Translations under genes and position numbers: made by a program
In this document: piece by piece, positions 5,526 through 25,837 of the stretch
Layout: each line of letters begins with the position of its first letter
Position numbering within the stretch: position 1 is the first letter of the stretch
Source of the DNA: Gluconacetobacter diazotrophicus PA1 5
GTDB lineage: Bacteria > Pseudomonadota > Alphaproteobacteria > Acetobacterales > Acetobacteraceae
Assembly: GCF_000021325.1 (NCBI RefSeq)
Contig: NC_011365.1
Location: 2,508,001 to 2,572,000 of the forward strand
Direction of reading: 5' to 3'
Length of the DNA: 64,000 bases
The notes under the pieces: model-generated
What the model saw: the letters and a program-made list of their open reading frames with translations, nothing else
Told to the model about the DNA's origin: nothing
The model's database searches: none

Positions 5526-5562
5526 CCGGTTACTCTGTATCCTCTTGAGATCGGATAAAAGA

Positions 5563-7385: not shown

Positions 7386-7580
7386 GTGACGAAATTCGAA
7401 CAAATGATAGAGACGGGCATCGCCACATGGAGCGGCATCGTACCGCCGAGCGAACTCGCGCGACGGCTGGAGGCGGAACTGGCGGTGACGATCTCCGCGT
7501 TCGAGGCGATGCGGGGGCAACTGCGGTTCGAGGATGAACCGTCGAGCTTCGAAGCAGCGCTGCAGGCGGCAAAGCAATGA
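7386..7580 (+). CDS. AtzG-like (DUF4089-type) small amidase partner
   Basis: A 64-residue acidic helical protein beginning with GTG at 7386; AAGGAG at 7374-7379 with 6-nt spacing supports this start. It is followed by the amidase in a 4-bp ATGA overlap. Size, position and pattern (N-terminal helix, PSELARRLEAELAVTISAFEAM, then FEDEPSSFEAAL) match the AtzG/DUF4089 proteins that bind AtzE-type amidases, analogous to GatC with GatA. In the cyanuric acid pathway AtzG is needed for AtzE stability and activity; that role here is inferred. Confidence 0.78.
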   Translation: MTKFEQMIETGIATWSGIVPPSELARRLEAELAVTISAFEAMRGQLRFEDEPSSFEAALQAAKQ

Positions 7581-9113: not shown

Positions 9114-10727
9114 CTATACATAACCGCCCTCGCGGTCCGCCTGGCGTCGTGTTTCCGTCCGGGCCCCGGGCGCGCCAAGGCCGCCCCCGCCGGGCGTCAT
9201 GATGATCAACGTCTCGTCGGGCGGGATAATCTGTAGCCCCTTGCCTGCGAGTTCCCTGCCGCCCGCCAGCTTGACGCAGCCGGGGGCGCCGTCCTTGCCC
9301 CCGACTGCGCCGCGCGGGGGGTATGTGATCCGGTCGAATGCGGCCAGCAGGTCGAACGGCCGCTGTTCCGTGCTGCCGATCTCCATGATCTGACCCAGGC
9401 CGCCGCGGGTCTCGCCGTCGCCGCCGCTGCCTTCGCGGAATTCCTTGCGCCAGAAGATGAGGGGGCACTGTATTTCCGCGATCTCGATCGGGGTGCCATG
9501 GACGCCGGAGGGAAACGCGGTGGCCGACAGCCCGTCCAGGCCCGGCCGCGCGCCCGTGCCGCCATTGGTCGTGATGGCCAGGGCGAAGGCCTGCGTCGTA
9601 TCCTGGCCGTCCGGCACCCAGTTTCCGCGTACCGTGATGTTCCACAGGCAGGATGTGCCTTCGGCCGGAATCCGGTCGGGCAGGGGCGTGCGCAGGCAGC
9701 CGAACACCATGTCCGGCAGCATCTGCCCGACGATATGCCGTGCGGAGACCGGCGCCGGGTACGGCGCGTTGAGCACGCTTCCCGCCGGTGCCGTGACGCG
9801 ATAGGCCGCCAGTGATCCGGCATTGTTGGGCACGTCCGGCGCGATGGCGCAGGCCAGGCCGAACACCGTATAGGCCTTGGTATAGGCCAGCGGTACGTTG
9901 ATTCCGCGTGGCACGACGGGGTCCGACCCGTCATAATCGACCTGCACGCCATCGGCATCGATCGTCAGGCTCGCCCGCAGCGTCAGCGGCGCATCGTAGC
10001 CGTCTATCGTCATGTCGTACGACCATGTGCCGCGTGGCAGGGCGGCGATTTTTTCCACGACGGCATCGTACGATCGCTCGATGATGAAATCGGCCAGCGG
10101 TTCCAGCGTATCGATGGCGAATTCGTCCATCATCGCGCGCAGCGCGCGCACGCCGACGTCGTTGCAGGCCGCCAGGGAATAGGTATCGCCCTCGGTGTCG
10201 ACCGGCAGGCGGGTGTTGGTGCGGATCATCGCCATCAGGGTCTCGTTCACCCGGCCCTGGTCGATCAGCTTGAGCATGGGGATCGACAGCCCCTCCATCA
10301 GCACGTCCGTCCCTTCCGGGCCGCAGCCCAGGCCGCCGATATCCATCAGGTGGCTGGTGCAGGAGAACAGCCCCACAAGCTTTCCCCTGTGGAAGGCCGG
10401 GGTCGTGACGACGAAATCGTTCAGGTGCCCCGTGCCCATCCACGGGTCGTTGGTGATGTAGGCATCGCCGTCCTTCATGGTCTCGATGGGGAAGTGGCGC
10501 AGGAAATGGCCCACGGATTCCGCCATCGAATTGACGTGGCCGGGGGTGCCGGTCACGGCCTGCGCGATCATGCGGCCCCGCAGGTCGAAGATTCCCGCCG
10601 AAATATCCTCGCATTCGCGCACGATCGGGCTGAAGGCCGTGCGAATCAGGACCTGAGCCTGCTCGCCGACGACGGCGATCAGGCGGTTCCACATGATCTG
10701 GAGATCGATCTGGTTCCGCGCGTTCAT
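9114..10727 (-). CDS. hyuB: Hydantoinase B / oxoprolinase family subunit
   Basis: The B subunit of an ATP-dependent hydantoinase/5-oxoprolinase-type amidohydrolase, 537 aa, a usual length. Typical stretches are visible: an N-terminal helix with IMWNRLIAVVGEQAQVLIRTAFSPIVRECEDIS, AYITNDPWMGTGHLND, TSHLMDIGGLG, YDGSDPVVPRGINVPLAYT and the C-terminal GGGGLGAPG. The start overlaps the stop of hyuA by 4 bp (ATGA), so the two subunits are made together. The pair hydrolyses a cyclic amide such as hydantoin, N-methylhydantoin or 5-oxoproline, or acts on a related ring; the exact ring is not readable. Confidence 0.9.
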   Translation of the reverse strand: MNARNQIDLQIMWNRLIAVVGEQAQVLIRTAFSPIVRECEDISAGIFDLRGRMIAQAVTGTPGHVNSMAESVGHFLRHFPIETMKDGDAYITNDPWMGTGHLNDFVVTTPAFHRGKLVGLFSCTSHLMDIGGLGCGPEGTDVLMEGLSIPMLKLIDQGRVNETLMAMIRTNTRLPVDTEGDTYSLAACNDVGVRALRAMMDEFAIDTLEPLADFIIERSYDAVVEKIAALPRGTWSYDMTIDGYDAPLTLRASLTIDADGVQVDYDGSDPVVPRGINVPLAYTKAYTVFGLACAIAPDVPNNAGSLAAYRVTAPAGSVLNAPYPAPVSARHIVGQMLPDMVFGCLRTPLPDRIPAEGTSCLWNITVRGNWVPDGQDTTQAFALAITTNGGTGARPGLDGLSATAFPSGVHGTPIEIAEIQCPLIFWRKEFREGSGGDGETRGGLGQIMEIGSTEQRPFDLLAAFDRITYPPRGAVGGKDGAPGCVKLAGGRELAGKGLQIIPPDETLIIMTPGGGGLGAPGARTETRRQADREGGYV

Positions 10728-12817
10728 TGGGCCGTTTCCTTCATGTCCATGACGATATTGCCGCTGCCGTCGATAAAGGCGTCGAAGCGGGCCGAAACGT
10801 AGGTGGTGGTCTCGCGCTCGGCGATCAGGGCCGGTCCGGGAACGATGCTGCCGGGGCGCATGTCGTCGCGGTCATGGACCGCCAGTTCTACGAACTGCCC
10901 CCTGGCCCCGTCGAACAGCCGGCGCGTCCGTTCCGGCGCCGCCCCGTGCCGTGCCGGCGTGGGGGCGAAGGGTTCGGGTTTCGCGGGCGTGGTCGAAACA
11001 CAGACCGACCAGTTCAGGATCTCGACCGGGGCGTTGGGGATGACGCGCTCGAACTGGCGGGCATATTCCGCCTCGAATGCCGCCCGCAGCGCCGGCAGGG
11101 CGTCGGGCGTCAGCGGTCCGTCCGGCAGGGACACGATGATTTCGTGTCCCTGTCCGACATAGCGCATGAAGCCGCCGCGCCGGACGGTCAGCGCCGCCGC
11201 GTCGGCTCCGTCCTGCACCATGTCCCGCGCCGTGTCCGTCATATCGTCCAGCAGGGACGTCATGGCGGCGGTGTCGAAGCCGGCATTCAGCCGCACCGGG
11301 CAGGAGCGGACGATCTCGAACGAGACCGGGGCGGCCAGGAAGCCGACGGCGGACCCCACACCGGCGTTCGACGGCACGACCAGCCGGCGGACCCCCAGTT
11401 TTTCGGCCACGCGGGCGGCATGCAGCGGGGCCGCGCCGCCGAAGGCGATCATGGTGTGGGTACCGATGACCGCCCCACGTTCGGCGGCATGCACGCGGGC
11501 GGCGCTGGCCATGTTCTCGCACACGATTTCATAGACCGCGTGGGCCGCCATTTCCGGCGACAGGCCCAGCGTGGTGCCGACGGCCTGCTGCAACGCGATC
11601 GCCGCGCGCTCGGGCTGCAGGGTCATGCTGCCGCCGGCGAAGGCCTCCGGCTGGATCAGGCCCAGCGTCACGTCCGCGTCGGTCACGGCCGGGCGCGTGC
11701 CCCCCAGCCCGTAGCAGGCCGGCCCGGGTACGGACGATGCGCTTTCCGGCCCGACGACGACGCGCTTCATGGCGTCCAGATGGACGAGCGACCCGCCCCC
11801 CGCGCCGATCTCGACCATTTCGATGACGGGAATGCGCAGCGGCAGGCCCGATCCTTTCATGAAACGGGCCGTGCGATCCACTTCGAACACGCGCGAGGAT
11901 GCGGGCTGACCGTGTTCGATCAGGCAGATCTTGGCCGTGGTGCCGCCCATGTCGAAGGACAGGACACGATCCTCGGCCAGGCGCCCGGCGCATTGGGCGG
12001 CGAAGATCGCGCCGCCCGCCGGACCGGATTCGACCAGGCGCACCGGAAACTGCCGCGCCGTCTCCAGCGACGTCAGTCCGCCGCCCGACGTCACCAGATA
12101 CAGCGCCCCACGGAACGACTGCGCATCCAGCGCCTGTCGCAGCCGGCCCAGATAGCCGGCCATCAGCGGCTGGACATAGGCGTTGGCGACGGTGGTGGAG
12201 GTGCGCTCATATTCACGCACTTCGGGGCAGACGGCGCTGGAAAGCGAAATCGGAATGTCCGGAAGCGCCTCGGCCAGGATCTCGCCGGCGCGGCGCTCAT
12301 GGTCCGGATTCGCGTAGGAATGCATGAAGGCGATCGCGATCGCCTCGGCCCCCGCGGCGCGCAGGCGCGGCGCCAGCGCGCGCAGCGCGTCCTCGTCCAG
12401 CGGCCTCTGGACCCGCCCCCGTGCGTCCATGCGCTCCGGCACGGTGAAGCGCGCGGTACGGGGAACCAGCGGCGCCGGCTTCCGGATCATGATGTCATAC
12501 TGGTTGAACCGGCTTTCCGTGCCGATTTCCAGGATGTCGCGAAATCCCTCGGTGCCGATCAGTACCGTCAGGGCGCCTCGCCGTTCGATAATGGCGTTGG
12601 TCGCCAGCGTCGTGCCATGGACGAAGACCGTGACGTCGGCGAAGGCCAGCCCGGCATCGCCCAGGATCAGGCCGATTCCGGTCATCACCCCTTCCTCGGG
12701 CGCATGCGGCGTCGTCAGGACCTTGCGCGTCAGGCGCCCGCGCGGGGTTTCCAGCACGATATCCGTGAACGTTCCGCCAATATCGGCGGCCAGGCGAATT
12801 TGCATCTTGGGGGACAT
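10724..12817 (-). CDS. hyuA: Hydantoinase A / oxoprolinase family subunit
   Basis: ATP-binding A subunit of the hydantoinase/oxoprolinase complex, 697 aa. The N-terminal actin-like phosphate loop is AADIGGTFTD (residues 10-19); a second nucleotide motif LSFDMGGTTAKICLI and the metal/glycine region VEIGAGGGSLVHLD follow, then the C-terminal domain. GGAGG at 12824-12828 lies 6 nt before the ATG. It heads a two-gene operon with hyuB and is divergent from the MarR-type gene across 78 bp, so the MarR protein is a likely regulator of this operon. Confidence 0.9.
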   Translation of the reverse strand: MSPKMQIRLAADIGGTFTDIVLETPRGRLTRKVLTTPHAPEEGVMTGIGLILGDAGLAFADVTVFVHGTTLATNAIIERRGALTVLIGTEGFRDILEIGTESRFNQYDIMIRKPAPLVPRTARFTVPERMDARGRVQRPLDEDALRALAPRLRAAGAEAIAIAFMHSYANPDHERRAGEILAEALPDIPISLSSAVCPEVREYERTSTTVANAYVQPLMAGYLGRLRQALDAQSFRGALYLVTSGGGLTSLETARQFPVRLVESGPAGGAIFAAQCAGRLAEDRVLSFDMGGTTAKICLIEHGQPASSRVFEVDRTARFMKGSGLPLRIPVIEMVEIGAGGGSLVHLDAMKRVVVGPESASSVPGPACYGLGGTRPAVTDADVTLGLIQPEAFAGGSMTLQPERAAIALQQAVGTTLGLSPEMAAHAVYEIVCENMASAARVHAAERGAVIGTHTMIAFGGAAPLHAARVAEKLGVRRLVVPSNAGVGSAVGFLAAPVSFEIVRSCPVRLNAGFDTAAMTSLLDDMTDTARDMVQDGADAAALTVRRGGFMRYVGQGHEIIVSLPDGPLTPDALPALRAAFEAEYARQFERVIPNAPVEILNWSVCVSTTPAKPEPFAPTPARHGAAPERTRRLFDGARGQFVELAVHDRDDMRPGSIVPGPALIAERETTTYVSARFDAFIDGSGNIVMDMKETAQ

Positions 12818-12895: not shown

Positions 12896-13471
12896 ATGAC
12901 GAACACGAAACCCGGCCGCCGCGCGCGCGCGGAACAGCCGTCCGAAGCGTTGGCCCTGGCCATGGAACGCGCCTTTATCGTGTCGTCGTCGCATCTCGCC
13001 AGTCCTGGAAACGAAGATCTCAGCGAGTTCGAATTCGCGCTGACGGTCGTCAATCATGCGTTCCAGCGCTGGGTGGTGCGCGGCATGGCGGCGGCGAACC
13101 TGCCCGACCTGTCCCCGCTGGACGCGCTGATCCTGCACAGCGTCAATCACCGCCATCGGCAGAAAAGCATCTCGGACCTGATGTTCACGCTCAATCTGTC
13201 CGAACGCCATTACCTCAATTATGCGATGAAGAAGCTGGACCGGCTGGGCCTCATCACCCGCCGCCGCGACGGCAAGGAGGTTTTCGTCGGCGCGACGGAG
13301 AAGGGGCGGACGGTCTGCGAGGATTACGCCCGTATCCGCAAGGTCTGCCTGCTGGAACTCATCCCCCCGGACCGGCGGCCGGGCGGCGTGAAGATCGGCG
13401 AGGTCGCGAAGGCGCTGCGCGTGCTGACGGGATTCTACGAACAGGCGTCGCGCTCGGCCTCGTCGCTCTAG
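12896..13471 (+). CDS. MarR-type winged-helix transcriptional regulator
   Basis: A 191-aa protein with a winged HTH (about residues 80-145): ALILHSVNHRHRQKSISDLM, the recognition helix region NLSERHYLNYAMKKLDRLGLI and the wing TRRRDGKEVFVGATEKG. GGGAG at 12880-12884 precedes the ATG. It is divergent from hyuAB and its end is only 10 bp from the end of the convergent pxp/acc operon, so it sits between the two ATP-dependent ring-opening modules. The first 40 residues are basic and probably disordered. Effector unknown; a role in repressing hyuAB is inferred from position. Confidence 0.8.
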   Translation: MTNTKPGRRARAEQPSEALALAMERAFIVSSSHLASPGNEDLSEFEFALTVVNHAFQRWVVRGMAAANLPDLSPLDALILHSVNHRHRQKSISDLMFTLNLSERHYLNYAMKKLDRLGLITRRRDGKEVFVGATEKGRTVCEDYARIRKVCLLELIPPDRRPGGVKIGEVAKALRVLTGFYEQASRSASSL

Positions 13472-13481
13472 GACGCGGCGC

Positions 13482-13865
13482 TCAGGCATCGGTTATCTCG
13501 AAGGCCGGGGCGTGAAAGCCGATGGGCGCGCCGTCCTCGGCCAGGACGGCGCTGAGCGTCCCGGCCGCCGGCGACGGGATCGGGAGGAGGGCCGGCCCGA
13601 TCTCGACAAAGCCCAGAATCGCCCCGCATGCGACCGTCGCGCCCGTTTGCGCGCCTTCGGCCCCCAGGCGGAAGATGCCCATCTCCGGGCTCAGGGCCCG
13701 CGTCACGGCGGGCGCCCCGGCGGCTGCGGGGACGACCGGCGTCTGCGTCGCCGCCTCGGCCAGCCGCAGGGTCAGCCTGGTCCCGGCGTCGCCCACCGTC
13801 AGGCTTCGGACGGCATTGCGCCGCATGGCCGCGACCAGCGCGGGCAACTGGTCCAGGATCGTCAT
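13482..13865 (-). CDS. Biotinyl-domain protein lacking the biotin-accepting lysine
   Basis: A 127-aa paralog of the biotin carrier two genes upstream: N-terminal helix, a short strand region (RLTLRLA), a Pro/Ala linker and a C-terminal biotinyl/lipoyl-like barrel (about residues 58-127). Where the carrier has EVMK, this protein reads EIGP (88-91), so the lysine that would be biotinylated is replaced by proline. It therefore cannot be a normal carrier. Its ATG overlaps the biotin carboxylase stop by 4 bp, so it is the last gene of the operon and is co-translated. A structural or assembly subunit of the carboxylase complex is possible; a decayed copy is the alternative. Confidence 0.75.
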   Translation of the reverse strand: MTILDQLPALVAAMRRNAVRSLTVGDAGTRLTLRLAEAATQTPVVPAAAGAPAVTRALSPEMGIFRLGAEGAQTGATVACGAILGFVEIGPALLPIPSPAAGTLSAVLAEDGAPIGFHAPAFEITDA

Positions 13866-15220
13866 GGCGTGGCCCCTTCGGCCGCCAGTGCCTCCAGATA
13901 ATGGACGGAGACGCCGCCGGCGCAAAAATCTGCGGCGTCCATCAGGCGGCGATGCAGCGGGGCGGTGGTGGTGATGCCTTCGACCATCATCTCGTCCAGC
14001 GCCGCGCGCATCCGCGCCAGCGCATCGGCGCGGTCCGCGCCATGGACGATCAGCTTGGCGACCAGCGAGTCGTACTGCGGCGGTACCGTGTATCCGTCAT
14101 ACAGGTGCGTATCGACCCGCACGCCGGGGCCGCCCGGCGGGCGCCATGTCCGCACGAGGCCGGGGCAGGGGGCGAATGTTTCCGGATGTTCCGCGTTGAT
14201 CCGGCATTCGATGGCATGGCCGCGCGTTTCGATATCGGACTGGCCGAACGACAGGGGATGTCCCATGGCGATACGCAGTTGTTCGCGCACGATATCGATG
14301 CCGGTCGTCATTTCGGTCACCGGGTGTTCCACCTGCAGGCGCGTGTTCATCTCGATGAAGGAAAACGCGCCGTCCTCGTAGAGGAATTCGAACGTGCCGG
14401 CTCCGACATACCCCATCCGGACGCAGGCGCGGGCACAGCGCTCGCCCAGGTCGGCGATACGGTCGGGCGGAATTCCGATGGCGGGCGCTTCCTCGATCAG
14501 TTTCTGGTGCCGGCGTTGTACGGAACAGTCCCGCGCGCCCAGCCAGACGGCCTGGCCCGCCCTGTCGGCCAGGACCTGGATTTCCACATGACGTGGGTGC
14601 TGCAGGAATCGCTCGGCATAGATCGACGGGTTGCCGAAGGCGCGTCCGGCTTCCTCGCGCGCGGTTTCGATCGCCTCCCGCGCGTTTTCGGGCCGGCGCA
14701 CGACGCGCATGCCGCGCCCGCCGCCGCCGCCTGCCGCCTTGACGATCAGCGGATAGCCCACGCCGTCGCAGATCCGCACGGCCTCGGCGATATCGTCCGG
14801 CAGCGCATCGTCCGAGCCGGGCAGGCAGGGTACGCCGCTGTCGCGCATCTGCCGCTTGGCGGCGATCTTGTCGCCCATCATGCGCATGATGGACGCGGGC
14901 GGTCCCACCAGGACCAGGCCCGCGCGTTCCACCGCTTCGGCGAAATCGGCATTTTCCGACAGGAAGCCATAGCCGGGATGGATCGCGTCCGCCCCCGTCA
15001 ATGCGGCGGCGCGCAGGATCCGCCCGGCATCCAGATAGCTCCGTGTCGCCGATGCGGGGCCGATGCAGATCCGCTGATCGACCAGGCGCAGATGCGCCAG
15101 GCCGGCATCGGCTTCGGAATATACGCCCACGCTGCGCAGCCCCAGCAGGCGGCAGGCGCGGGCAATGCGCAGGGCGATTTCGCCGCGATTGGCGATCAGG
15201 ACGGTGCGGACGTCACGCAT
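13862..15220 (-). CDS. accC: Biotin carboxylase subunit (AccC-type)
   Basis: ATP-dependent carboxylation of carrier-bound biotin. The 452-aa product has the N-terminal domain (MRDVRTVLIANRGEIALRI), the ATP-grasp glycine loop AAGGGGGRGMRVV, the catalytic ENTR-type motif FIEMNTRLQVEHPVTE and the C-terminal ECRINAEHPETF. The ATG at 15220 overlaps the end of the carrier gene by 8 bp; an upstream in-frame start only adds carrier-gene sequence. Because it lies in an operon with pxpA, pxpB and pxpC rather than with fatty-acid genes, it is probably a dedicated, not housekeeping, biotin carboxylase. The symbol is given by family only. Confidence 0.9.
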   Translation of the reverse strand: MRDVRTVLIANRGEIALRIARACRLLGLRSVGVYSEADAGLAHLRLVDQRICIGPASATRSYLDAGRILRAAALTGADAIHPGYGFLSENADFAEAVERAGLVLVGPPASIMRMMGDKIAAKRQMRDSGVPCLPGSDDALPDDIAEAVRICDGVGYPLIVKAAGGGGGRGMRVVRRPENAREAIETAREEAGRAFGNPSIYAERFLQHPRHVEIQVLADRAGQAVWLGARDCSVQRRHQKLIEEAPAIGIPPDRIADLGERCARACVRMGYVGAGTFEFLYEDGAFSFIEMNTRLQVEHPVTEMTTGIDIVREQLRIAMGHPLSFGQSDIETRGHAIECRINAEHPETFAPCPGLVRTWRPPGGPGVRVDTHLYDGYTVPPQYDSLVAKLIVHGADRADALARMRAALDEMMVEGITTTAPLHRRLMDAADFCAGGVSVHYLEALAAEGATP

Positions 15221-15659
15221 CCCGGCGCTCCACGGTGAACAGTTCGGTTCCCGGCTCCACCGCCTGGCCGTTTTCACACAGGATCGCGACGATCGTGCAG
15301 GGGAATTCGGCCTCGACCCGCGTCAGGGTCTTCATCACCTCCAGGATATAGAGGGGCTGTTCCTGCGCGACGACCGAGCCTGCGGTGACGAAGGGGGCGC
15401 CCCCCGGCGTGGGCGAGGCGTAGAACTGGCCATGCATCGTCGCCGTGATCGTGCAGGATGTGGGGGCCGGGGCGGGCAGGGGGGACGGCGGCACGTCCGG
15501 CGTCGCGGCAGGCACTGTCCCCGGTGCCGGGGACGCCGGGGGGGACGTGTCCCGGACCAGGCGGACATGCTCGTCGCCATGGGTGTATTCCAGCTCGGCA
15601 ATGCCGAGTGCGTGCATCCGGTCCATGAGGATCGTGATGCGCTCCAGATCGACGGTCAT
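15213..15659 (-). CDS. accB: Biotin carboxyl carrier protein (AccB-type)
   Basis: A 148-aa carrier with an N-terminal helical segment, a Pro/Ala-rich flexible linker (about residues 38-68) and a biotinyl domain. The biotin site is K110 in LEVMKTLT; the usual EAMKM is changed to EVMKT, which keeps the Met-Lys core. It carries carboxybiotin between AccC and a carboxyltransferase. It overlaps accC by 8 bp and starts 9 bp after the pxpA stop. In this operon the only carboxyltransferase-like partners are PxpB and PxpC. Confidence 0.88.
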   Translation of the reverse strand: MTVDLERITILMDRMHALGIAELEYTHGDEHVRLVRDTSPPASPAPGTVPAATPDVPPSPLPAPAPTSCTITATMHGQFYASPTPGGAPFVTAGSVVAQEQPLYILEVMKTLTRVEAEFPCTIVAILCENGQAVEPGTELFTVERRDA

Positions 15660-15668
15660 CGGGGCTTC

Positions 15669-16436
15669 TCAGGTCAGCGCGCGCAATGTGATGCCCGCCG
15701 CTTCCAGCCGGGCGCGCACGGTGCGGGCGACCGCGACGGACTCGGCATTGTCGCCATGCACGCAGATTGAATCGATCCGGGTCGGGAGCATCCGGCCCGA
15801 CACGGTTTCGATGGCGCCGGCCCGCACCATGCGGACGATGCGGTCGGCCGCGAAATCCGCGTCGTGCAGCACGGCACCCGGTTCCTTGCGGGAGACCAGG
15901 TGCCCGTCCTCGGTGTACGCGCGATCGGCGAAAATCTCGGAAAAGATCGTCATGCCGCGTTCGCGGCCGATCCGTTCCAGATGGCTCAGGGCGATGGCCA
16001 TCAGCGGCAGGGTGGGGTCGATGCGCCGCACGGCCTCGATCACGGCCTCGGCCACGGCGGGGTCCCGCTCGGTCAGGTTGCCCAGCGCACCATGCGTCTT
16101 CACATAGGTCATGCGATGCCCCGCATAGGCCGCCAGCGCCTGGGCGGCACCAACCTGATAGGCGACGATCCGCTCGATCTCGCCGGTTGAAAACGGCATG
16201 ACGCGTCGCCCGAACCCCCACAGGTCGGGAAAGCCGGGATGGGCCCCGACGGCCACGCCCTTGTCCCGGGCGACGCGGAAGGTCGCGGCCATAACTTCCG
16301 GATCGCCGCCATGGAAGCCGCATGCCACGTTCGCGGACGTCACGACGTCCAGCATCGCCGCGTCATTGCCGATCGTGTAGTGGCCGAAGCTTTCGCCCAG
16401 GTCGGCATTCAGGTCGATGGTCTTGCGGTCGGTCAT
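15669..16436 (-). CDS. pxpA: 5-oxoprolinase subunit A (LamB/YcsF family)
   Basis: Subunit of the prokaryotic ATP-dependent 5-oxoprolinase PxpABC, which converts 5-oxoproline to glutamate. The 255-aa protein shows DLNADLGESFG, ANVACGFHGGDP, GAHPGFPD, VKTHGALGN and ICVHGD, the conserved metal- and substrate-site motifs. AGGAGA at 16445-16450 is 8 nt upstream of the ATG at 16436, which is preferred to an ATG 24 bp earlier that overlaps pxpC. It lies between pxpC and the biotin carrier gene. Confidence 0.92.
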   Translation of the reverse strand: MTDRKTIDLNADLGESFGHYTIGNDAAMLDVVTSANVACGFHGGDPEVMAATFRVARDKGVAVGAHPGFPDLWGFGRRVMPFSTGEIERIVAYQVGAAQALAAYAGHRMTYVKTHGALGNLTERDPAVAEAVIEAVRRIDPTLPLMAIALSHLERIGRERGMTIFSEIFADRAYTEDGHLVSRKEPGAVLHDADFAADRIVRMVRAGAIETVSGRMLPTRIDSICVHGDNAESVAVARTVRARLEAAGITLRALT

Positions 16437-16456
16437 GGGGACGGTCTCCTGTGGAA

Positions 16457-17428
16457 TCATGCCGGCATCAGCATGCGGCGCAGATCGGCGAACGCGTCCG
16501 CGCGGCGCGCCTGGTCCCGGGCCTCGGCCCGCAGCGCGGCGACGGCGTCCGTGCGCGTGGTCTCGACGAAGCGGATGCTGCCGTTCACGCGGGTCTGGGC
16601 CAGCAGGCGCAGGTCGGATTCGATGATGGTGGCGATCTTCGGATACCCGCCGCAGGTGTTGGCGTCGGCCATCTGGACGATCGGCTGTCCGGCAGGTGGC
16701 ACCTGGACCGTTCCCGGCACGATCCCGTGCGAAAACAGGTTCAGCGGCCGTTGCTGGGCCAACGGTGTGCCCTCCAGACGATAGCCCATGCGGTTGGCGC
16801 TCGGCGTCAGCCGCCAGGCGGTCTGGAAGAACGCATGCCGCGCCTCGGCGGTAAAATCGTCATATTCGGCGGCGGGCAGCACGCGCACGCGGGTGGCGTC
16901 GGCGTCGGGCATGGGGCATCGGACCGCCAGGCCGTAGCCGTGCGGCGGCACGCCGGGCGTCGCGGGTACGCCGCAGGGCAGCCGGTCGCCCTTTTGCAGC
17001 GCGCGCCCCTCCAGCCCGCCGAACCCGCCCTTCAGGTCGGTGGCACGGGCGCCCAGCACCAGGGGCACGTCGATCCCGCCCGCGATGGTCAGATAGGTGC
17101 GGCATCCCGTGGTCGGGGCGTCGCATTGCAGCGTCTGCCCGGCCCGCGCGATCATGGCCCAGTCGGGCGGCAGGTCGATACCGTCCAGCCGGACGGGACC
17201 GCGCGCGCCGGTGACGGCGAAGGCGCGATCATCCAGGAAACGAAGACGGAACGGGAAGAAGGCGATCTCGATTCCCGCCGCGTCCGGCTCGTTGCCCAGC
17301 ATCATGTTGCCGCAGGCCAGGGCCAGTATGTCCATTGCCCCGCCCCGCGCGACACCCAGGGTCATGGCCCGGGGACGGCCCCGGTCCTGAATGGTGTTCA
17401 GCGCCGAATTGGCAAGGATTTCGATCAT
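16457..17428 (-). CDS. pxpC: 5-oxoprolinase subunit C / biotin-dependent carboxyltransferase-like
   Basis: A 323-aa KipA/PxpC protein, homologous to one half of the carboxyltransferase domain of urea carboxylase. It contains ALNTIQDRGRP near the N-terminus, GGAMDILALACGNMMLGN, TYLTIAGGIDVPLVLGARAT and the C-terminal GTVQVPPAGQPIVQMADANTCGGYPKIA. Its ATG overlaps the pxpB stop by 4 bp. With PxpA and PxpB it forms 5-oxoprolinase in other bacteria; here the operon also encodes biotin carboxylase and carrier, so a true biotin-dependent transfer reaction is possible. Confidence 0.92.
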   Translation of the reverse strand: MIEILANSALNTIQDRGRPRAMTLGVARGGAMDILALACGNMMLGNEPDAAGIEIAFFPFRLRFLDDRAFAVTGARGPVRLDGIDLPPDWAMIARAGQTLQCDAPTTGCRTYLTIAGGIDVPLVLGARATDLKGGFGGLEGRALQKGDRLPCGVPATPGVPPHGYGLAVRCPMPDADATRVRVLPAAEYDDFTAEARHAFFQTAWRLTPSANRMGYRLEGTPLAQQRPLNLFSHGIVPGTVQVPPAGQPIVQMADANTCGGYPKIATIIESDLRLLAQTRVNGSIRFVETTRTDAVAALRAEARDQARRADAFADLRRMLMPA

Positions 17429-18066
17429 GCGACCCTCGTGAAGCGTACGGTGTCGCCAATGCGCAGGACGCCCGGATCCGGGCGGTGCGGGTCGAACAGC
17501 GGCAGGGTCGTCCGCCCGATGATGTGCCAGCCGGAGGGCGCGGTGCAGGGCATGACGCCCGCGTGGCCCCCGCCCACCACCACGGCCCCGCGCTCCACGC
17601 TCAGCCGGGGCGTGTCGCGACGCGGCACGGCCAGGCGCGAATCCAGCCCGGTCATGTAGGCAAAGCCCGCCATCGCCCCGATGGCGGCCACGCTGTAGCG
17701 CCCGGCCAGATGCGCGGCGATGGTCTCCTCCTCCGACAGGCCGGCATGCGCCGCCACCAGGGCCAGGTCCTCGCCGAAGGCGCCGCCATAGGTGACGGGA
17801 ATTTCGATCTCGCGCGCCGGGATCTCCTCGGCGGCGGCGGCGGCCCAGGTCCGGCGGATCAGGTCTTCGACCGCATCGGGTTCGGTGCGGAGCGCATCGA
17901 ACGTGACCAGCAGGTTGTTGACCCCCGGCACCGCCTGCACGACCGACGGCTGGCCGGCCAGGGCGCGCGCCGCCGCCCAGATCCGGCGCTGCGTCGCGGC
18001 GTCGAACGGGCCTGCTGCGGCGTCCAGCAGGATGGCGCCGGTGCCGGCCATGCTCAGGCGGATCAT
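17425..18066 (-). CDS. pxpB: 5-oxoprolinase subunit B / carboxyltransferase-like subunit
   Basis: A 213-aa KipI/PxpB protein. Recognisable stretches are VPGVNNLLVTFD, IEIPVTYGGAFGEDLALVA, HLAGRYSVAAIGAMAGFAYMTGLDSRLAVPRR and CTAPSGWHIIGRTTLPLFDP, as in the family. It starts in a 4-bp overlap with the MFS gene stop and ends in a 4-bp overlap with pxpC, so MFS-pxpB-pxpC are translationally coupled. Partner of PxpC and PxpA. Confidence 0.92.
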   Translation of the reverse strand: MIRLSMAGTGAILLDAAAGPFDAATQRRIWAAARALAGQPSVVQAVPGVNNLLVTFDALRTEPDAVEDLIRRTWAAAAAEEIPAREIEIPVTYGGAFGEDLALVAAHAGLSEEETIAAHLAGRYSVAAIGAMAGFAYMTGLDSRLAVPRRDTPRLSVERGAVVVGGGHAGVMPCTAPSGWHIIGRTTLPLFDPHRPDPGVLRIGDTVRFTRVA

Positions 18067-19319
18067 CCTGCCGCGCCCCGCGCGACGGGCCGGGCATGGA
18101 TCATGCGGCGCGGCATCGTCAGCGCCGCCGCCGCGCCGCACAGGATGATGCCGGCGGTGATGTAGAAGACGCCGTGGAAATTGCCCGTGGCCTGCAGCAG
18201 GTAGCCCGTCATGATGGGGGCGGCGATTCCCAGGCCGTTGCTGAAGGTCAATGTCAGGCCGGTGACCGATCCCAGCAGGTCGTGCTCCACGACCAGATCG
18301 GCCAGCAGCGCCATGTTGGCCCCCGTACCCGCAGCCATGAAGGCCATGGACACGGCCAGCAGGGGAATGATCGTGCCGGCGGTGGTGCAGAACGGCAGCA
18401 ATCCCATCAGCGCGGCCAGGACCAGGAAGACGGCCACGACATGGCGGCGCGCGCCACGGACCAGCGGCCGCCCGGCCATCAGCCGTTCGCCGGCCTTGCC
18501 CGCGGCAAGCGACAGGACCGCGGCCCCGCAATAGCAATAGGCGGTGTCGGTCCCTGCCTGCACCATGTCCAGGTGCAGCACCTGCCGCAGCACCAGCGGC
18601 AGCCACGACATCAGCAGGAAGTTCGCGTAATTGGCGCAGCATTGGGCAATGACGACCCCCCAGAACGAGGACGAGGCGAACAATGTCGGCACGGACAGGA
18701 TCCCGTGCCGCATCGTCCGGGTCCGTTCCACCTGCGCGGGATGGGCGAGCCACCACGCCACCGACCACAGCAGGCCGCCCGCCCCCAGGATGCCGAAGGC
18801 GGGCCGCCAGCCGAAACGCGCGATCAGCCATGCGCCCGCCGCGGCGCCGGATGCCAGGCCGATCGGAATGCCGCAGATAAAGGCCGTCATCATCAGGCCG
18901 CGCTCGGTGGGGGGGGCCCAGGCCCGCACCACCTTGTTGCCCAGGGAGAAGGTCGGTGCCTCGCCAATTCCCAGCAGCACGCGTGTGGCGATGAAGGCCG
19001 GAATGGTGGCGGCCATGCTGCCCAGGATCATGGCCATCGACCACAGCGCCACCGCCAGGGCGCCGACGGTGCGCGCACCCAGCCTGTCCAGCAGGATCGC
19101 GCTGGGCAGGTTCAGGATGAAATAGGACCAGAGAAAGCTGGACAGCACCCAGCCGATTTCGCCCGGCGTCAGGCCGAATTCATGGGCGATCGACGGCATT
19201 CCGACCGAAAGCGCCGCCCGGTCCCCATAGCAGATGACGCACATCGCAACCGCCAGCGCATAGATCACGTAGCGGAAAGGACGCGGTGTCACGACATCGG
19301 GGCGGACGATATTCAGCAA
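18063..19319 (-). CDS. MFS transporter, ACS type, first gene of the pxp/acc operon
   Basis: A 418-aa inner-membrane carrier with about twelve hydrophobic segments, ILNLPSAILLDRLGARTV after TM2 and LGIGEAPTFSLGNKVVRAW in the TM4 region, typical of anion:cation symporters. The start is TTG at 19319 with AGGA 9 nt upstream. It leads the operon and is coupled to pxpB, so it probably imports the substrate of PxpABC (5-oxoproline or a related cyclic amide). It is distinct from the partial ACS carrier at the left window edge. Confidence 0.86.
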   Translation of the reverse strand: MLNIVRPDVVTPRPFRYVIYALAVAMCVICYGDRAALSVGMPSIAHEFGLTPGEIGWVLSSFLWSYFILNLPSAILLDRLGARTVGALAVALWSMAMILGSMAATIPAFIATRVLLGIGEAPTFSLGNKVVRAWAPPTERGLMMTAFICGIPIGLASGAAAGAWLIARFGWRPAFGILGAGGLLWSVAWWLAHPAQVERTRTMRHGILSVPTLFASSSFWGVVIAQCCANYANFLLMSWLPLVLRQVLHLDMVQAGTDTAYCYCGAAVLSLAAGKAGERLMAGRPLVRGARRHVVAVFLVLAALMGLLPFCTTAGTIIPLLAVSMAFMAAGTGANMALLADLVVEHDLLGSVTGLTLTFSNGLGIAAPIMTGYLLQATGNFHGVFYITAGIILCGAAAALTMPRRMIHARPVARGAAG

Positions 19320-19389: not shown

Positions 19390-22011
19390 TCAGAAATTCA
19401 GGCCCGTTCGCACATAGTACATTCCACCGTTGAAGCCGTAGGGCGAAAAGAACGAATATTTATAGGCGTTGAAGGACGTGGCGATCGATTTCGGGTTCAG
19501 GCGCGTGGGATATTTGTCGCCGAGGTTGTTGGCGCCGACCGCGACGGTCCATTGCGGCAGGACCCTGTAGGAAACTTCGATGTTGGTGATGAAGGCGGGC
19601 CGCTGGACAAGCCACAGATTGGTCGGCAGGCTGGGTGTCGCCGCATAGATCAGAGAGCCGTAGCGCGATTCCTGAACGAAGGCCGACCATCTGCCCCGGC
19701 TCCAGTTCATGCTCAGGTTCTCGCGGTTCTTGGGCGCCGAATGCAGCAGGACGGTCCGGGCATATTGATTGAAATAGGCCAGATTCATGCTCTGAAGAAC
19801 CTGGGGCACGGCATTGGAACTGCGGATCTCGTTGTCGGTCAGGCTGACGCTGAACGCGAAACGGAACGTCCCCAGCCGCCTGGTAGGAAGGGAGTAGTCG
19901 GTTGCGATATCGCCGCCGTAGGTCGCCGTATTGACCGGATTCGTATAGTACGAGGCATAGGTTACATTGCCCAGGCCGGCACTGGCCAGCAATGCGCCCA
20001 CACCCGCGCCGCCCAGTGTCGTGGTGCTCGCCAGGCGGTCGTTGATTGCGATGTAATAGAGATTTCCCGTCACATGCCAGTTGTCGACCGGTGTCGCATC
20101 GACGCCGACGCTGTAGCTGCGGGAATACTCGCCCTTCAGCGCGTGGGCGCCGAGGGCGCGGGCCGGCGCGCTGTTGCTGGGAAGCTGGTCGATCGAATAG
20201 GTCGCGAAAGGCGCCGAGTAGAAATAATATTCCTGACCGAGCGTGGGGGGGCGATAGCCGGTGTTGATGCTGGCCCGCAGCGCGAACCGGTCGGAGAAAT
20301 TATAGCGCGTGCCGACCGACCCGGTCGTCACGGTGGCCAGGTTGTTATAGCTGGTCGCGCGGCCGCCCAACGTCCATTCCCAACGCGGCAGGACGTAGAA
20401 ATCCAGATTGACGTGCCCGTCATAGACGTCGCGGTTCTGGTTGGTGACGGCCAGCGGGGGATTGCCCGCGTGGTCGGCCGACCCCGGATTGGCGGTCTTG
20501 CCGGCGTTCGGCCCTTCCAGGATCGGAACGCCGCCGTCGCCATAGGATTCGTAGACGCCCGGCCCCATGGCGAACATGTCGCGACGATATTCCGCGCCGA
20601 ATTCCACATTGGCCAGCTTGGGCAGGAAGCCCAGGCGGAGCGCGTGTGACGCCCTGAAGCCGGCCGTCAACTGGCTGGTCACGGCCGAACCGGTATCGAA
20701 TTTCGTCGGGCTGTTCACGCCATAGGTGGGATTGTCGGTGTCCTGCATCCAGTAGCGCTGGATGTCGCGGCCATAATTGACATAGGTGTCCCAGTTGAAT
20801 CCGGCCGTCGTGCCCTTGAAGCCGTTATCGACCTCGAAATCGTTTTCCTCCAGGTCGAGATAGGGCTGCATGCCGTTCGGCCAGATTGCGTTGACGGTCA
20901 GGTCGTCCGCCGCGGACCGGAAATTCTCGGCCGCGTTGACGCGTCGGTGACCATAGGTGTCGGTCGAATAGAACTTGATGCTGTCGGTAATGGGAATGCC
21001 CATATTGGCGGAAATCGACTCGCGCGTCTGCTTCGGGATGCCCAGGATGCGCTGGATGTTGCGGCCCAGCGCCGCGGCGCGCGGATCGACCTGGCCGCCG
21101 GGCAGCGCATAATACAGGTCGTTGGGATACGTCGCGGGGTTGATGTAGTCGCCCGTGCGCGAGGTCGGCAATTGATGGGTGATCTGGGCGGAGAGGTCGA
21201 GGTAACCGCCGTGGCGGCCGATCGCGAACCCCTTGGTGATCGAACCGTCCAGGGCCTGTCCGTCACCCGCGTAATAGCCGCTGTTCTTGAAATCGGCCGA
21301 CAGGCCCTGCGTATCTTCCTTCAGGACGATATTGACCGCGCCCGCAATAGCATCCTGGCCGTAGAGCGCGGTCGCCCCTTCCGTAATGACTTCGATATGG
21401 TCCACCGCGCCCACCGGAATCAGGGAGATATCGGCGGGTTCCGTGCCCCAGTTCGGTCCGGCGTTCGCATTGAAATTGGCGCCCAGATGCCGGCGGTGCC
21501 CGTTGACCAGAATCAGCGTCTGGTCGGCGGACAGGCCGCGCAACTGCATCGTCTGTACGAACGCATTGTTGCCCACGCCCGGCAGCGGGGGCGCCGAAAC
21601 GGATGGCATCATCTGCGACAATGCCTGGATCAGGTTGGTCTGGCCCGTGGCCTTGAGGTCCGATGCGCTGATGACCGTCACCTGCGTCGTGCTGTGGCGT
21701 CGTGTCGAGGTCGAAAGCACATTGTTGCCGGGCGCGGCCGTGCCGCTGACGGTAATATCCTCGGACGACGTCTTCAGCGCGCTGCTGGCCGCGGCTTTAT
21801 CGGCGGCCTGCCGCTGCGTGGCGCCCTGCGCGGGGGCGCCATGCGTGGCGGGGGCGGGCTTGTGCCGCGCGGGCTTGCGGGGCTGTGTCACCTCGGACGG
21901 ATCGGGCGATGTCGTGGCTGCATAGGCGGGGCCGAAGGCGCCCTGCAGCAGAAGCGCGCCCATCGCGGCGCTGCCGAGAAGAAAAGTCTTCGCCCCGGAA
22001 TGCTTTGGCAT
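19390..22011 (-). CDS. TonB-dependent outer-membrane receptor (paralog 2)
   Basis: Outer-membrane active transporter of 873 aa. AGGAGG (22020-22025) lies 8 nt before the ATG at 22011, which beats a GTG 6 bp upstream. A signal peptide ends at AYA (about residue 31). The TonB-box-like segment DITVSGTAAPGN, plug motifs LVNGHRRH and VEVITEGATALYGQDA, and a C-terminal YYVRTGLNF are visible. It is closely related to the receptor at 1.5-4.0 kb, sharing the VSGTA-x-PGN start of the plug. It lies upstream of the MFS-pxp operon on the same strand (70-bp gap) and divergent from the LysR-M20 operon. Confidence 0.92.
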   Translation of the reverse strand: MPKHSGAKTFLLGSAAMGALLLQGAFGPAYAATTSPDPSEVTQPRKPARHKPAPATHGAPAQGATQRQAADKAAASSALKTSSEDITVSGTAAPGNNVLSTSTRRHSTTQVTVISASDLKATGQTNLIQALSQMMPSVSAPPLPGVGNNAFVQTMQLRGLSADQTLILVNGHRRHLGANFNANAGPNWGTEPADISLIPVGAVDHIEVITEGATALYGQDAIAGAVNIVLKEDTQGLSADFKNSGYYAGDGQALDGSITKGFAIGRHGGYLDLSAQITHQLPTSRTGDYINPATYPNDLYYALPGGQVDPRAAALGRNIQRILGIPKQTRESISANMGIPITDSIKFYSTDTYGHRRVNAAENFRSAADDLTVNAIWPNGMQPYLDLEENDFEVDNGFKGTTAGFNWDTYVNYGRDIQRYWMQDTDNPTYGVNSPTKFDTGSAVTSQLTAGFRASHALRLGFLPKLANVEFGAEYRRDMFAMGPGVYESYGDGGVPILEGPNAGKTANPGSADHAGNPPLAVTNQNRDVYDGHVNLDFYVLPRWEWTLGGRATSYNNLATVTTGSVGTRYNFSDRFALRASINTGYRPPTLGQEYYFYSAPFATYSIDQLPSNSAPARALGAHALKGEYSRSYSVGVDATPVDNWHVTGNLYYIAINDRLASTTTLGGAGVGALLASAGLGNVTYASYYTNPVNTATYGGDIATDYSLPTRRLGTFRFAFSVSLTDNEIRSSNAVPQVLQSMNLAYFNQYARTVLLHSAPKNRENLSMNWSRGRWSAFVQESRYGSLIYAATPSLPTNLWLVQRPAFITNIEVSYRVLPQWTVAVGANNLGDKYPTRLNPKSIATSFNAYKYSFFSPYGFNGGMYYVRTGLNF

Positions 22012-22325
22012 CGTCACGGCCTCCTAAATGTGTAGGCGGCAGACTGCCCGCAATGATCTGCGAACATATCTAAATCACACACATAACGAGCACGAAACTA
22101 AATGGCTCTTCAAGATTTTTATGGCCCGGGGAAACTTTTTTTGCGGACGCAGATAACAGGTCTTCGGAAATTTATGATTTAATAAGGAAAATCGGTAAGG
22201 GCCGCCATGGCCGGGCATGCGCAATCTCCTTGACCCTCTCTTTGTATAAAATGTAGAACGAAACTGAGAGACAAAAATATCGCATTATTATTGATGTCAG
22301 AGACAAAATAATTGATGGTTGTCCC
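22012..22325. promoter_or_regulatory. Divergent promoter region between TonB receptor 2 and LysR
   Basis: This 314-bp region is AT-rich (especially 22075-22200 and 22230-22320) and separates two divergent transcription units. It is the expected site of control by the adjacent LysR protein. I see no convincing gene and no single strong palindrome in it. Confidence 0.45.
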
Positions 22326-23231
22326 ATGATCTCGGAACTCCGCACGTTTTCCGCAGCCGCCCGGCTGGGAAGTTTTGCCGCCGCCGCGGAGCGCGTCGGG
22401 CTGACGCAATCCGCCGTCAGCGCGCAGATCAGGCGGCTGGAGCAGGAACTGGGCCATGCCCTGTTCGAGCGCACCGGGCGATCGGTGACCCTCAGTGCGG
22501 CCGGGCACCTGTCCCTTGGCCATGCCGAGAACATTCTCGCCCTGTTCGACAAGATGCGGGACCCCGCCGCCGATATCGTCGTGCATGGACGGCTGCGTGT
22601 CGGGGCCATTTCCACCACCCATACGACGATTCTGGCCCCGGCGGTGGCCAGTCTCAGGGTGAATTATCCCGCGCTTACCCTTCATATCGTGCCGGGCGTG
22701 TCGATGGGGCTGATGGATCGCCTGGATGCCGGCGAGCTCGATGCCGTCATCATCGTGCGGCCGCCTTTCGGGCTGATGCCGCATCTGGGCTGGCATCCGC
22801 TGGTCAGGCAGCATTTTGTACTGGTCGTTCCGGCGCACCTGCCGCCGGACGACTGGCGGCAGATCATCATCAGCCAGCCCTTCATCCGATACGACCGCCG
22901 GTCGTTCGGCGGCCGGACCGTCGATCGCTTCCTGCAGGCGCAGGGCATCGTACCGAACACGGCGATCGAGACGGAGGAAGTCCATGCCATCCTGCAGATG
23001 GTCGCCAGTGACATGGGCGTTGCCATCGTTCCGTACATCCTGGCTGTGCGCGCCATGCCGAATATCCGTGTGGTCCCGCTGGGGGAACACACGATCCTGC
23101 GCGAGATCGGGGTGCTGACGATGCTGAGCTGGACCTCTCCCGCCCTGGACGCCCTGATCGCCCATCTGGTGCAGGCCTGCCCGGGGGACGAGCTTCCGTC
23201 CGACGCACGGGCCGGGGAGCAGGCTCCATGA
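22326..23231 (+). CDS. LysR-family transcriptional regulator
   Basis: A 301-aa regulator with an N-terminal HTH (AAARLGSFAAAAERVGLTQ, then QIRRLEQELGHALFERTGR) and an effector domain (LRVGAISTTHTTILAP, DAVIIVRPPFG). It is divergent from TonB receptor 2 and its stop overlaps the start of the M20 amidohydrolase by 4 bp, so it is the first gene of the operon it probably controls. Being first in a four-gene coupled operon is unusual for LysR proteins, which more often are divergent. Confidence 0.88.
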   Translation: MISELRTFSAAARLGSFAAAAERVGLTQSAVSAQIRRLEQELGHALFERTGRSVTLSAAGHLSLGHAENILALFDKMRDPAADIVVHGRLRVGAISTTHTTILAPAVASLRVNYPALTLHIVPGVSMGLMDRLDAGELDAVIIVRPPFGLMPHLGWHPLVRQHFVLVVPAHLPPDDWRQIIISQPFIRYDRRSFGGRTVDRFLQAQGIVPNTAIETEEVHAILQMVASDMGVAIVPYILAVRAMPNIRVVPLGEHTILREIGVLTMLSWTSPALDALIAHLVQACPGDELPSDARAGEQAP

Positions 23232-24493
23232 CCGTCATGCCACCCGCGCTGGACGACGCACGCGCGTTATTCGCCCGTCTGCACACGATCGGCTTCGACG
23301 GGCTGGGAATGACCCGTGCGTCGTACGGCGACGGCGAAAACCAGGCGCATGCGCTGCTGGCGGACATGGCGCGGGCACGCGGCCTGCTGGTGCGCCGCGA
23401 TTGGGCCGGCAACCTGTTCATCACCCTGCCGGGCCGCGACCGGACATTGCCGGCGGTGATGACCGGATCGCATCTCGACACCGTGCCTTGCGGCGGCAAT
23501 TACGATGGCGCGGCCGGCGTGCTGGCGGGCTTTTCCTGCCTGTGCGGCTGGGTGGACGCAGGATACGTGCCGGCGCGCGACGTGGTCCTGATCGTCACCC
23601 GGGCCGAGGAAAGCGTGTGGTTCCCGGTCTCGTATATCGGCAGCAAGAGCGCCTTCGGACTGCTCGAGGACAGCGCGCTGGCGGCGGTTCGCCGTGACGA
23701 TGGACAGACCCTGGCCGATCACATGCGCGCCTCGGGCGGGCAGCCCGATTGCATCCGTACCGCGCCGGTGCTGCGGCCGTCCGACCTGGCGTGTTTCGTC
23801 GAACTGCATATCGAACAGGGGCCGGTCCTGCCGGCGGCCGGCGTGCCGGTCGGCATCGTGACGGGCATCTGTGGCAGCGTGCGCTATCGCGCGGCGACCA
23901 TCCACGGGCGCTATGCCCATTCCGGCGCAACGCCGCGTGCGTTCCGCGCCGACGCGGTCATGGCGGCGGCGACGCTGATGACGGTGATGCAGGCCGAGTG
24001 GCGCAAGGTCGAAGCCGAAGGCGGCGAGATGACGCTGACCTTCGGCGTCTGTCATACGGATGCCGCCCAGGCGAATTTCAGCGCCGTTGCCGGACGGGTC
24101 GATCTCAGTATCGATATCCGCTCGCGCGATCATGGCCTGCTCGAGCGTATGGAGGCGGCCCTGCTGGCGCACACCCGGGCTGTCGAGGACGAGTATGGTG
24201 TCCAGATCGATCTCGGCGCCCGCACGCAGAGCGCGCCGGCCGCAATGGACGCGACGCTGCAGGCCGAAGCCGTCGCCCTGGCGCGAAAGGCCGGTATCCC
24301 GGCGGTGACGCTGCCCAGTGGTGCCGGGCATGATGCCGCGATCTTCGCCGGGCAGGGCGTACCCACGGTGATGCTGTTCGTCCGGAACGCCAACGGCAGC
24401 CACAACCCCTACGAGGCCATGGAATTCGAGGATTTCGCCCTGGCGACGCGGCTGCTCGAACGGCTGCTGTACCGGCATGCGGAGCAAGGATGA
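23228..24493 (+). CDS. M20-family N-carbamoyl-L-amino-acid hydrolase / allantoate amidohydrolase type
   Basis: A zinc-dependent amidohydrolase, 421 aa. Metal-site motifs are GSHLDTVP (H82, D84), GNYDGAAG (D93), the catalytic EE (127-128), ELHIEQG (H194) and SHNPYE (H392); the dimerisation-domain loop AHSGATP is present. Family members remove carbamoyl groups from N-carbamoyl amino acids (HyuC) or act on allantoate or ureidoglycolate. In a locus with HyuAB, an N-carbamoyl product of hydantoin opening is the natural substrate, but this is inferred. It overlaps both neighbours by 4 bp. Confidence 0.88.
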   Translation: MTVMPPALDDARALFARLHTIGFDGLGMTRASYGDGENQAHALLADMARARGLLVRRDWAGNLFITLPGRDRTLPAVMTGSHLDTVPCGGNYDGAAGVLAGFSCLCGWVDAGYVPARDVVLIVTRAEESVWFPVSYIGSKSAFGLLEDSALAAVRRDDGQTLADHMRASGGQPDCIRTAPVLRPSDLACFVELHIEQGPVLPAAGVPVGIVTGICGSVRYRAATIHGRYAHSGATPRAFRADAVMAAATLMTVMQAEWRKVEAEGGEMTLTFGVCHTDAAQANFSAVAGRVDLSIDIRSRDHGLLERMEAALLAHTRAVEDEYGVQIDLGARTQSAPAAMDATLQAEAVALARKAGIPAVTLPSGAGHDAAIFAGQGVPTVMLFVRNANGSHNPYEAMEFEDFALATRLLERLLYRHAEQG

Positions 24494-25833: not shown

Positions 25834-25837
25834 CGTC

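Follow-up and report, generated by a model that had tools for sequence, protein, structure and literature searches.

The window analysed here is a stretch of 64,000 nucleotides from Gluconacetobacter diazotrophicus PA1 5 (positions 2508001–2572000 of contig 1 in a 3.9 Mb genome), and it carries a seven-gene operon (window positions 13482–19319) in which the genes of a PxpABC-type 5-oxoprolinase are accompanied by genes for a biotin carboxylase (AccC), a biotin carboxyl carrier protein (BCCP; AccB) and a second, AccB-like protein. With a probability of about 0.56, the product of the operon is a biotin-dependent enzyme of several subunits that opens a lactam in the manner of 5-oxoprolinases, with the AccB-like protein, a paralogue without the biotin-bearing lysine (pseudo-BCCP), as a structural or regulatory subunit. 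The association of pxp and acc genes is already known, and a mechanism along the lines of a first-pass annotation of the window, which had AccC and AccB charging PxpB/PxpC in the manner of a split urea carboxylase, is likely. The element that looks new, judging from sequence, is a recurrent lysine-less carrier paralogue as a regular part of the operon; searches of an open-licence literature collection aimed at lysine-less carriers listed no bacterial example beside pxp genes.

Gene content and proposed mechanism

The genes run on the minus strand in the order MFS-pxpB-pxpC-pxpA-accB-accC-accB-like, all seven inside 13482–19319, and adjacent genes overlap by 4–8 bases or are separated by one gap of 9 bases. 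This order and tight spacing, as given in the first-pass annotation, are borne out by Pfam domains and coordinates; the genes described there as fused are separate, overlapping genes. The first gene (18063–19319, with a TTG start in the open reading frame listing) encodes a major facilitator superfamily (MFS) transporter (MFS_1, 175.9 bits), for which the best NCBIfam match, the D-galactonate transporter subfamily, scores under its cut-off (171.1 against 395 bits). The ATG of pxpB (17425–18066; CT_C_D, 218.6 bits) overlaps the MFS stop, and its product, corresponding to carboxyltransferase subdomains C/D, passes TIGR00370 (184.6 bits, cut-off 145.55). The product of pxpC (16457–17428; CT_A_B, 294.9 bits), corresponding to subdomains A/B and bearing a Q252/N257 loop, passes the broader model TIGR00724 (272.7, cut-off 230.2), fails the PxpC equivalog model NF045499 (298, cut-off 500) and is 96% and 95% identical to the proteins of Gluconacetobacter asukensis and Gluconacetobacter aggeris, respectively. 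The LamB/YcsF-family gene pxpA (15669–16460; LamB_YcsF, 320.2 bits) passes NF003814 (367.2, cut-off 226); its likelier start, judging from the lengths of relatives (254–255 amino acids in several), is the ATG at 16436, in which case the gap before it is 20 bases. All three subunits are thus present together, each over its Pfam cut-off. PxpABC, which we take to be YbgJ-YbgK-YbgL of Escherichia coli and KipI-KipA-YcsF of Bacillus subtilis, was reportedly characterised in its original study as an ATP-dependent 5-oxoprolinase.

Of the biotin-related genes, accB (15213–15659; Biotin_lipoyl, 47.3 bits) has an intact biotin site, EVMKT, with K in the aligned column, and scores 92.8 on the BCCP model TIGR00531 (cut-off 115.2). 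Three biotin carboxylase domains are encoded by accC (13862–15220), which passes TIGR00514 (630.7, cut-off 626.5), and the operon closes with the pseudo-BCCP gene (13482–13865), recognised by the aligned site, its place beside accC in relatives and a predicted BCCP fold. No AccA or AccD is encoded among the operon genes (the rest of the genome was not searched for them), where the carboxyltransferase-type genes are those of PxpB and PxpC. The resemblance to urea carboxylase and urea amidolyase lies in the biotin carboxylase, carboxyltransferase and BCCP parts, with a carboxyltransferase homologous to PxpB/PxpC; unlike the single-chain enzyme, which has P at the position equivalent to 257 of PxpC, the window genes are separate, and none passes the urea carboxylase model TIGR02712, all scoring far under its cut-off of 1303.85 (AccC 453.2, PxpC 135.9, AccB 22.1, PxpB 14.8).

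In the proposed mechanism, AccC would carboxylate the biotin on AccB using ATP and bicarbonate, as the intact sites suggest, and AccB would bring carboxybiotin to PxpB/PxpC acting as a two-chain carboxyltransferase. PxpB/PxpC would then transfer the carboxyl group onto the amide of a lactam with a five-membered ring, either 5-oxoproline or something closely related to it, which would thereby be activated, and PxpA would open the ring, after which the carboxyl group would leave or be cut off. The lysine-less paralogue, unable to hold biotin at the usual site, would most likely be a structural or regulatory subunit of the AccB/AccC assembly, by analogy with the way plant BADC proteins act with BCCP. 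From their positions, the MFS transporter and a TonB-dependent receptor encoded upstream may import the substrate.

Biotin carboxylase genes beside pxpBC

The comparison of gene order across genomes that the first-pass annotation had proposed was carried out, and the order recurs. Of 12 named relatives retrieved with PxpC as query, 11 have the block pxpB-pxpC-pxpA-accB-accC-accB-like, two Pseudomonas among them. The twelfth, Acetobacter garciniae (L040), was considered as a natural case of AccBC loss and rejected, having a complete second operon of the window type elsewhere in its genome (L200). A PxpC survey of 299 Pseudomonadota genomes gave matches in 135 and at least 108 places with an open frame shorter than 1,000 amino acids; 100 stand-alone PxpC places were fetched, leaving out the window and seven others, and ~6 kb on each side was examined, with four stretches ending at contig ends (L118, L128, L131, L139). 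AccC lies within ~6 kb of 25 of the 100 places, in three architectures. Class II consists of pxpA, a BCCP of ~80 residues, accC, pxpB and pxpC (ten loci, the order differing in L090, plus the contig-cut L128); class III has a biotin carboxylase–BCCP fusion beside pxpBC (nine loci, with pxpBC itself fused in eight and split in L076); class IV is the window type (five loci). The remaining loci comprise one with a pseudo-BCCP without AccC (L142), one with a carrier and an accC cut at the contig end (L131) and 73 with no acc gene.

Plasmid loci, hand-picked among the matches listed (5 of 40 and 4 of 10), extend this distribution. Class IV is also found on plasmids of Mesorhizobium, Rhizobium, Microvirga, Terrarubrum and Burkholderia, a Rhizobium leguminosarum plasmid carries class II, and a Lactiplantibacillus plasmid (L176) has pxpB-pxpC-accB-accC, cut by the record end. 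Separately, the genome of Komagataeibacter xylinus has, besides a window-type operon (L034), a second class IV set (L201) in which accB-accC-pseudo-BCCP is divergent from pxpB-pxpC-pxpA.

In an AccC tree of 55 rows (L128, being too short, was omitted), each architecture has its own clade: class II (10 rows, support 100/99), class III (9 rows, 100/100) and 16 of the 17 class IV rows (100/99), with L083 outside. No housekeeping AccC falls inside any of these clades; class IV branches amid housekeeping AccCs from other Pseudomonadota. A single non-pxp row, L167, groups with class III through long branches, a placement that may be false. The window genome has a second accC elsewhere, 57% identical to the operon copy and with its own accB, and this housekeeping AccC lies in a clade other than that of the operon AccC. 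Of 14 catalytic columns checked, labelled by what we take to be E. coli numbering, 13 are invariant in all 55 rows and the H236 column varies. The genome has one match to the biotin/lipoate ligase family, which does not distinguish biotin from lipoate.

A structural precedent comes from PDB entry 9yx5, in which two chains are allophanate hydrolase subunits 2 and 1 (PxpC and PxpB) and which is also filed under the AccA3 biotin carboxylase/carrier sequence. The chains, sharing one entry, presumably form one complex, and the source, going by 3mml and sister entries, is probably M. smegmatis; no PxpA chain was matched in the entry, and 9yx5 was not among the matches listed in the fold library. A paper on PII names AccA3 and MSMEG_0435, and its available portion does not mention a complex of both (PMC11001197). 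The likeness to the window operon is that a biotin carboxylase and a carrier share an entry with PxpB and PxpC; unlike the operon proteins, AccA3 is one chain with both domains, and it also occurs in acyl-CoA carboxylase entries. In the class III locus L093, the biotin carboxylase–BCCP protein aligns with AccA3 from end to end (733 bits; 5mlk, 716; others among the matches listed, at most 468). The highest-scoring matches of the PxpBC from this locus are 3mml and 9yx5 (216 and 214 bits; TTHA0988, 211; E. coli YbgK, 138). The kinds of partner brought together in class III are therefore those of 9yx5.

The recurrent linkage in three architectures, the separate AccC clades and 9yx5 give good support, at family level, to the charging of PxpB/PxpC with biotin. 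That part of the first-pass proposal is supported, and for the window operon itself the precedent, as far as sequence comparison goes, is indirect: the best solved relative of its PxpB is E. coli YbgJ (5dud_B), YbgK, also of E. coli, is the solved chain nearest to its PxpC (229.9 bits, compared with 124.1 for 9yx5), and the sister clades of its PxpC are plain clusters. The operon resembles PxpABC of E. coli in having all three subunits and in these nearest solved chains, and differs from it in the linked AccB, AccC and pseudo-BCCP and in Q252/N257 of PxpC. The claim that such a machine would be new was too strong, since 9yx5 exists and a six-gene Staphylococcus aureus operon including pxpB, pxpC, pxpA, accB and accC is in print (PMC11315280). 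The two operons are alike in joining 5-oxoprolinase with biotin carboxylase and carrier genes; neither a joint complex nor a lysine-less carrier is mentioned in the portion of that report available.

Several observations weigh against a biotin-dependent enzyme. AccC was not found within ~6 kb at 74 of the 100 places (L131 ends just inside accC at its contig end), so most family members operate with no AccBC linked to them, and an Agrobacterium vitis plasmid locus (L174) has accB and a pseudo-BCCP with no accC in its 13.9 kb stretch. The PxpC tree is less clean by class than the AccC tree (label changes: class II, three; class IV, four; class III, one): classes II and III lie far from the window type, class IV falls with plain clusters in one group (97, from the SH-like approximate likelihood ratio test, SH-aLRT, only), and the clades sister to that of the window are plain clusters without linked AccC. 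In a residue table of 113 rows (the window, 12 named loci and 100 survey loci), Q occupies position 257 of PxpC in 62 of the 76 rows that have no counted AccC, and 36 of the 37 rows with AccC have another residue, a link that is not significant on six independent pairs (same way 1.7, opposite 0.0, no difference 4.3). A PxpC residue rule for biotin dependence was rejected, as it fails in L083, L131, L176, L207 and L209; L131, with accB and the start of accC at the contig end, has Q at 257, and the plasmid loci L207 and L209 retain Q252 but also have Q at 257. Further, PxpABC is described as ATP-hydrolysing, with no biotin partner mentioned in the available part of the source (PMC8453981).

In a plainer account, PxpABC would be an ordinary ATP-dependent, biotin-independent 5-oxoprolinase and AccB and AccC would serve another purpose, e.g., acyl-CoA carboxylation with AccA/AccD encoded elsewhere. 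The absence of AccC from at least 74 of the 100 sampled clusters and from the nearest plain clades fits it, as does the discussion of the S. aureus accBC genes as related to fatty acid synthesis (PMC11315280, in the part available). However, the AccCs form three clades, one per architecture, the biotin carboxylase–BCCP fusion shares its operon with fused PxpBC in eight of nine class III loci, and 9yx5 has PxpB, PxpC and AccA3 together, and the account is judged improbable. Should the biotin-dependent reading be true, it would account for the label 'biotin-dependent carboxyltransferase family protein' that PxpC bears in public records, although the known enzyme is taken to need no biotin, and 5-oxoprolinases would fall into two kinds, one ATP-direct and the other biotin-charged; the presence of 'acetyl-CoA carboxylase' genes next to pxp genes should then not be taken, untested, as a sign of fatty acid synthesis.

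The lysine-less carrier

The last gene had been taken for an accB-type carrier in the first-pass annotation, a description that does not hold: where AccB has the K of EVMKT, its product has P in the same register. Across the pseudo-BCCPs examined, the column is non-K in 27 of 27, compared with K in 26 of 26 partner AccBs; 23 of the pseudo-BCCPs have P (14), A (2), H (2) or D, G, S, V or R (one each), and four more have P (2), E or S. Pseudo-BCCPs lie beside pxp genes in 26 loci from Acetobacteraceae, Pseudomonas, Rhizobiales, Burkholderia and others, and a tblastn query with the pseudo-BCCP matched 61 plasmid records, 38 of them from Rhizobium. Since a non-K carrier, together with AccB and AccC, is what places a locus in class IV, the presence of a pseudo-BCCP there is circular; counted without that circularity, loci with AccC and a full-length, lysine-bearing AccB have a non-K copy in 17 of 17 cases (the window, 11 named and five survey loci), and class II and III loci, with a short or fused carrier, in 0 of 19. 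The cut-off loci L131 and L176 are uninformative for this count.

The protein matches no Pfam family, and its matches to NCBIfam BCCP models are weak and below cut-off. An AlphaFold2 model (from a 12-sequence alignment; mean per-residue confidence, pLDDT, 82.4; predicted template-modelling score, pTM, 0.55) has an N-terminal helix and a barrel, and a Foldseek search with this model placed BCCP domains on top (5gua, E 8.4e-05, TMt 0.87; 1bdo, TMt 0.81). A predicted BCCP-like fold without the biotin lysine is a feature that the protein shares with BADC-type subunits. In plants, BADC proteins, which are homologous to BCCP and lack its biotinylation motif, help the assembly of biotin carboxylase with BCCP or inhibit (PMC11926652, in the portion available). 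The parallel would be a BCCP homologue without the motif joining biotin carboxylase and BCCP, the binding being that described for BADC in the same portion (PMC11926652); it is drawn by analogy only, BADCs being plant proteins whose partner carboxyltransferase is that of acetyl-CoA carboxylase and not PxpB/PxpC.

In a tree, pseudo-BCCPs are separate from the carriers and form two groups plus two stray long branches (L142 and L083); a single clade is not rejected (approximately unbiased test, p 0.305), so that a single origin is neither shown nor rejected. The long branches of a fast-evolving protein and the lack of a Pfam family would be expected of a decaying accB duplicate without a role. 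Against decay, the gene is lysine-less in 27 of 27 cases yet retained beside pxp genes in 26 loci, its product has a predicted BCCP fold, and its ratio of nonsynonymous to synonymous substitution rates (dN/dS) is like that of accB in a Gluconacetobacter trio (0.47–0.54; accB, 0.54–0.57; accC and pxpC, 0.12–0.24) and spans 0.22–0.59 in an Acetobacter trio (accB, 0.28–0.39); decay is judged highly improbable. On these ratios, the pseudo-BCCP is kept but loosely constrained.

Two loci show the gene in other company. In L142 (genome G188), a pseudo-BCCP gene (2042–2512, minus strand) lies near pxpBCA without AccB or AccC, with an amino-acid ATP-binding cassette (ABC) transporter, a short-chain dehydrogenase/reductase (SDR), a LysR regulator and an aminotransferase nearby, and its product perhaps works with the housekeeping carrier. 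In L174, a lysine-bearing AccB and a pseudo-BCCP are encoded in tandem ahead of pxpB (4870–5794, plus strand).

If the biotin-dependent reading holds, the lysine-less carrier would offer a simple bacterial system for testing the way in which a non-biotinylated BCCP homologue assembles or throttles a carboxylase, a matter under study in plants. A bolder form of it is put forward tentatively, as less likely than not: a new multi-subunit amide carboxylase in which the lactam would be N- or O-carboxylated before hydrolysis, a non-biotinylated carrier homologue would be a regular subunit and bacterial counterpart of BADC, and the substrate could be a hydroxylated or methylated pyroglutamate, in view of the aminotransferase, SDR and RraA-type aldolase genes near the rhizobial and Burkholderia operons.

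Substrate and neighbouring genes

Within a loop that is otherwise conserved, PxpC differs by class. At position 252, class IV has Q in 16 of 17 rows, urea carboxylase (26/26), class II (11/11) and sister plain rows (15/15) have L throughout, and class III has F (9/9); at position 257, N occupies 16 of 17 rows in class IV and P all 26 urea carboxylase rows. Q252/N257 should, on this sequence comparison, be read as marks of class IV only. Elsewhere in the table, G replaces Q at 257 in eight plain clusters of one PxpC clade, with no linked AccC (L100, L104, L107, L110, L113–L115 and L120), and in L125 outside that clade.

The class IV operons on rhizobial and Burkholderia plasmids are accompanied by some or all of an amino-acid ABC transporter, a pyridoxal-phosphate (PLP) aminotransferase, a NAC/LysR regulator, an SDR and an RraA-type aldolase. 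RraA-type/4-carboxy-4-hydroxy-2-oxoadipate aldolase genes stand by class IV or related operons in L174, L175, L207, L208 and L209; such neighbours hint at a hydroxylated or branched substrate, and the company of aminotransferase, SDR and aldolase would, speculatively, suit a hydroxylated pyroglutamate. The loop residues and neighbours would be compatible with either 5-oxoproline or a relative as the substrate.

The same biotin-dependent machine might act on another substrate, i.e., a substituted pyroglutamate or other cyclic amide to which the PxpC loop is tuned, and HyuA/HyuB (see below) or other enzymes might handle that compound or the one after it. The class-specific residues at 252 and 257, the score of the window PxpC under the equivalog cut-off and the plasmid neighbours all lend this some weight. 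On the other side, PxpA and PxpB pass 5-oxoprolinase models, in L210, from Burkholderia cenocepacia, the transporter is of the MFS type and the 11 kb stretch contains no RraA, and the HTH_27 family to which the regulator beside the operon belongs also flanks five plain clusters (L044, L049, L052 and L056 of the sister clades, and L117), pointing to a similar inducer. A substrate other than 5-oxoproline is a serious possibility, albeit one held with less than even confidence.

That regulator, a winged-helix protein (12896–13471, plus strand; HTH_27, 70.5 bits), is encoded downstream and convergent with the operon. Beyond it, on the minus strand, lie genes for a HyuA-like subunit of the hydantoinase/oxoprolinase/caprolactamase family (10724–12817; Hydantoinase_A, 255.1 bits), with N-methylhydantoinase 7hk5 and 5-oxoprolinase 6yra as its closest solved chains, and a HyuB-like subunit (9114–10727; Hydantoinase_B, 476.9 bits). 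Two unrelated lactam-opening families, HyuA/HyuB (9114–12817, minus strand) and a PxpABC-type system, stand side by side. HyuA/HyuB are nearby in six of 13 window-type loci (the window and the 12 named), in two of 25 AccC-linked survey loci (L139 and L141) and in none of the 75 others, and the HyuA-like subunit is perhaps in the same pathway as the operon.

Upstream of the operon is the TonB-dependent receptor gene (19390–22017, minus strand; TonB_dep_Rec_b-barrel), and a TonB receptor gene is found upstream in five relatives as well (L032, L033, L036, L037 and L038). The region around the operon may be an island handling amides or glutamyl compounds. Farther out, at window positions 7577–8995 and 23228–26797 on the plus strand, are genes for an amidase, an M20 peptidase, a PGA_cap protein and a 2-hydroxyacid dehydrogenase.

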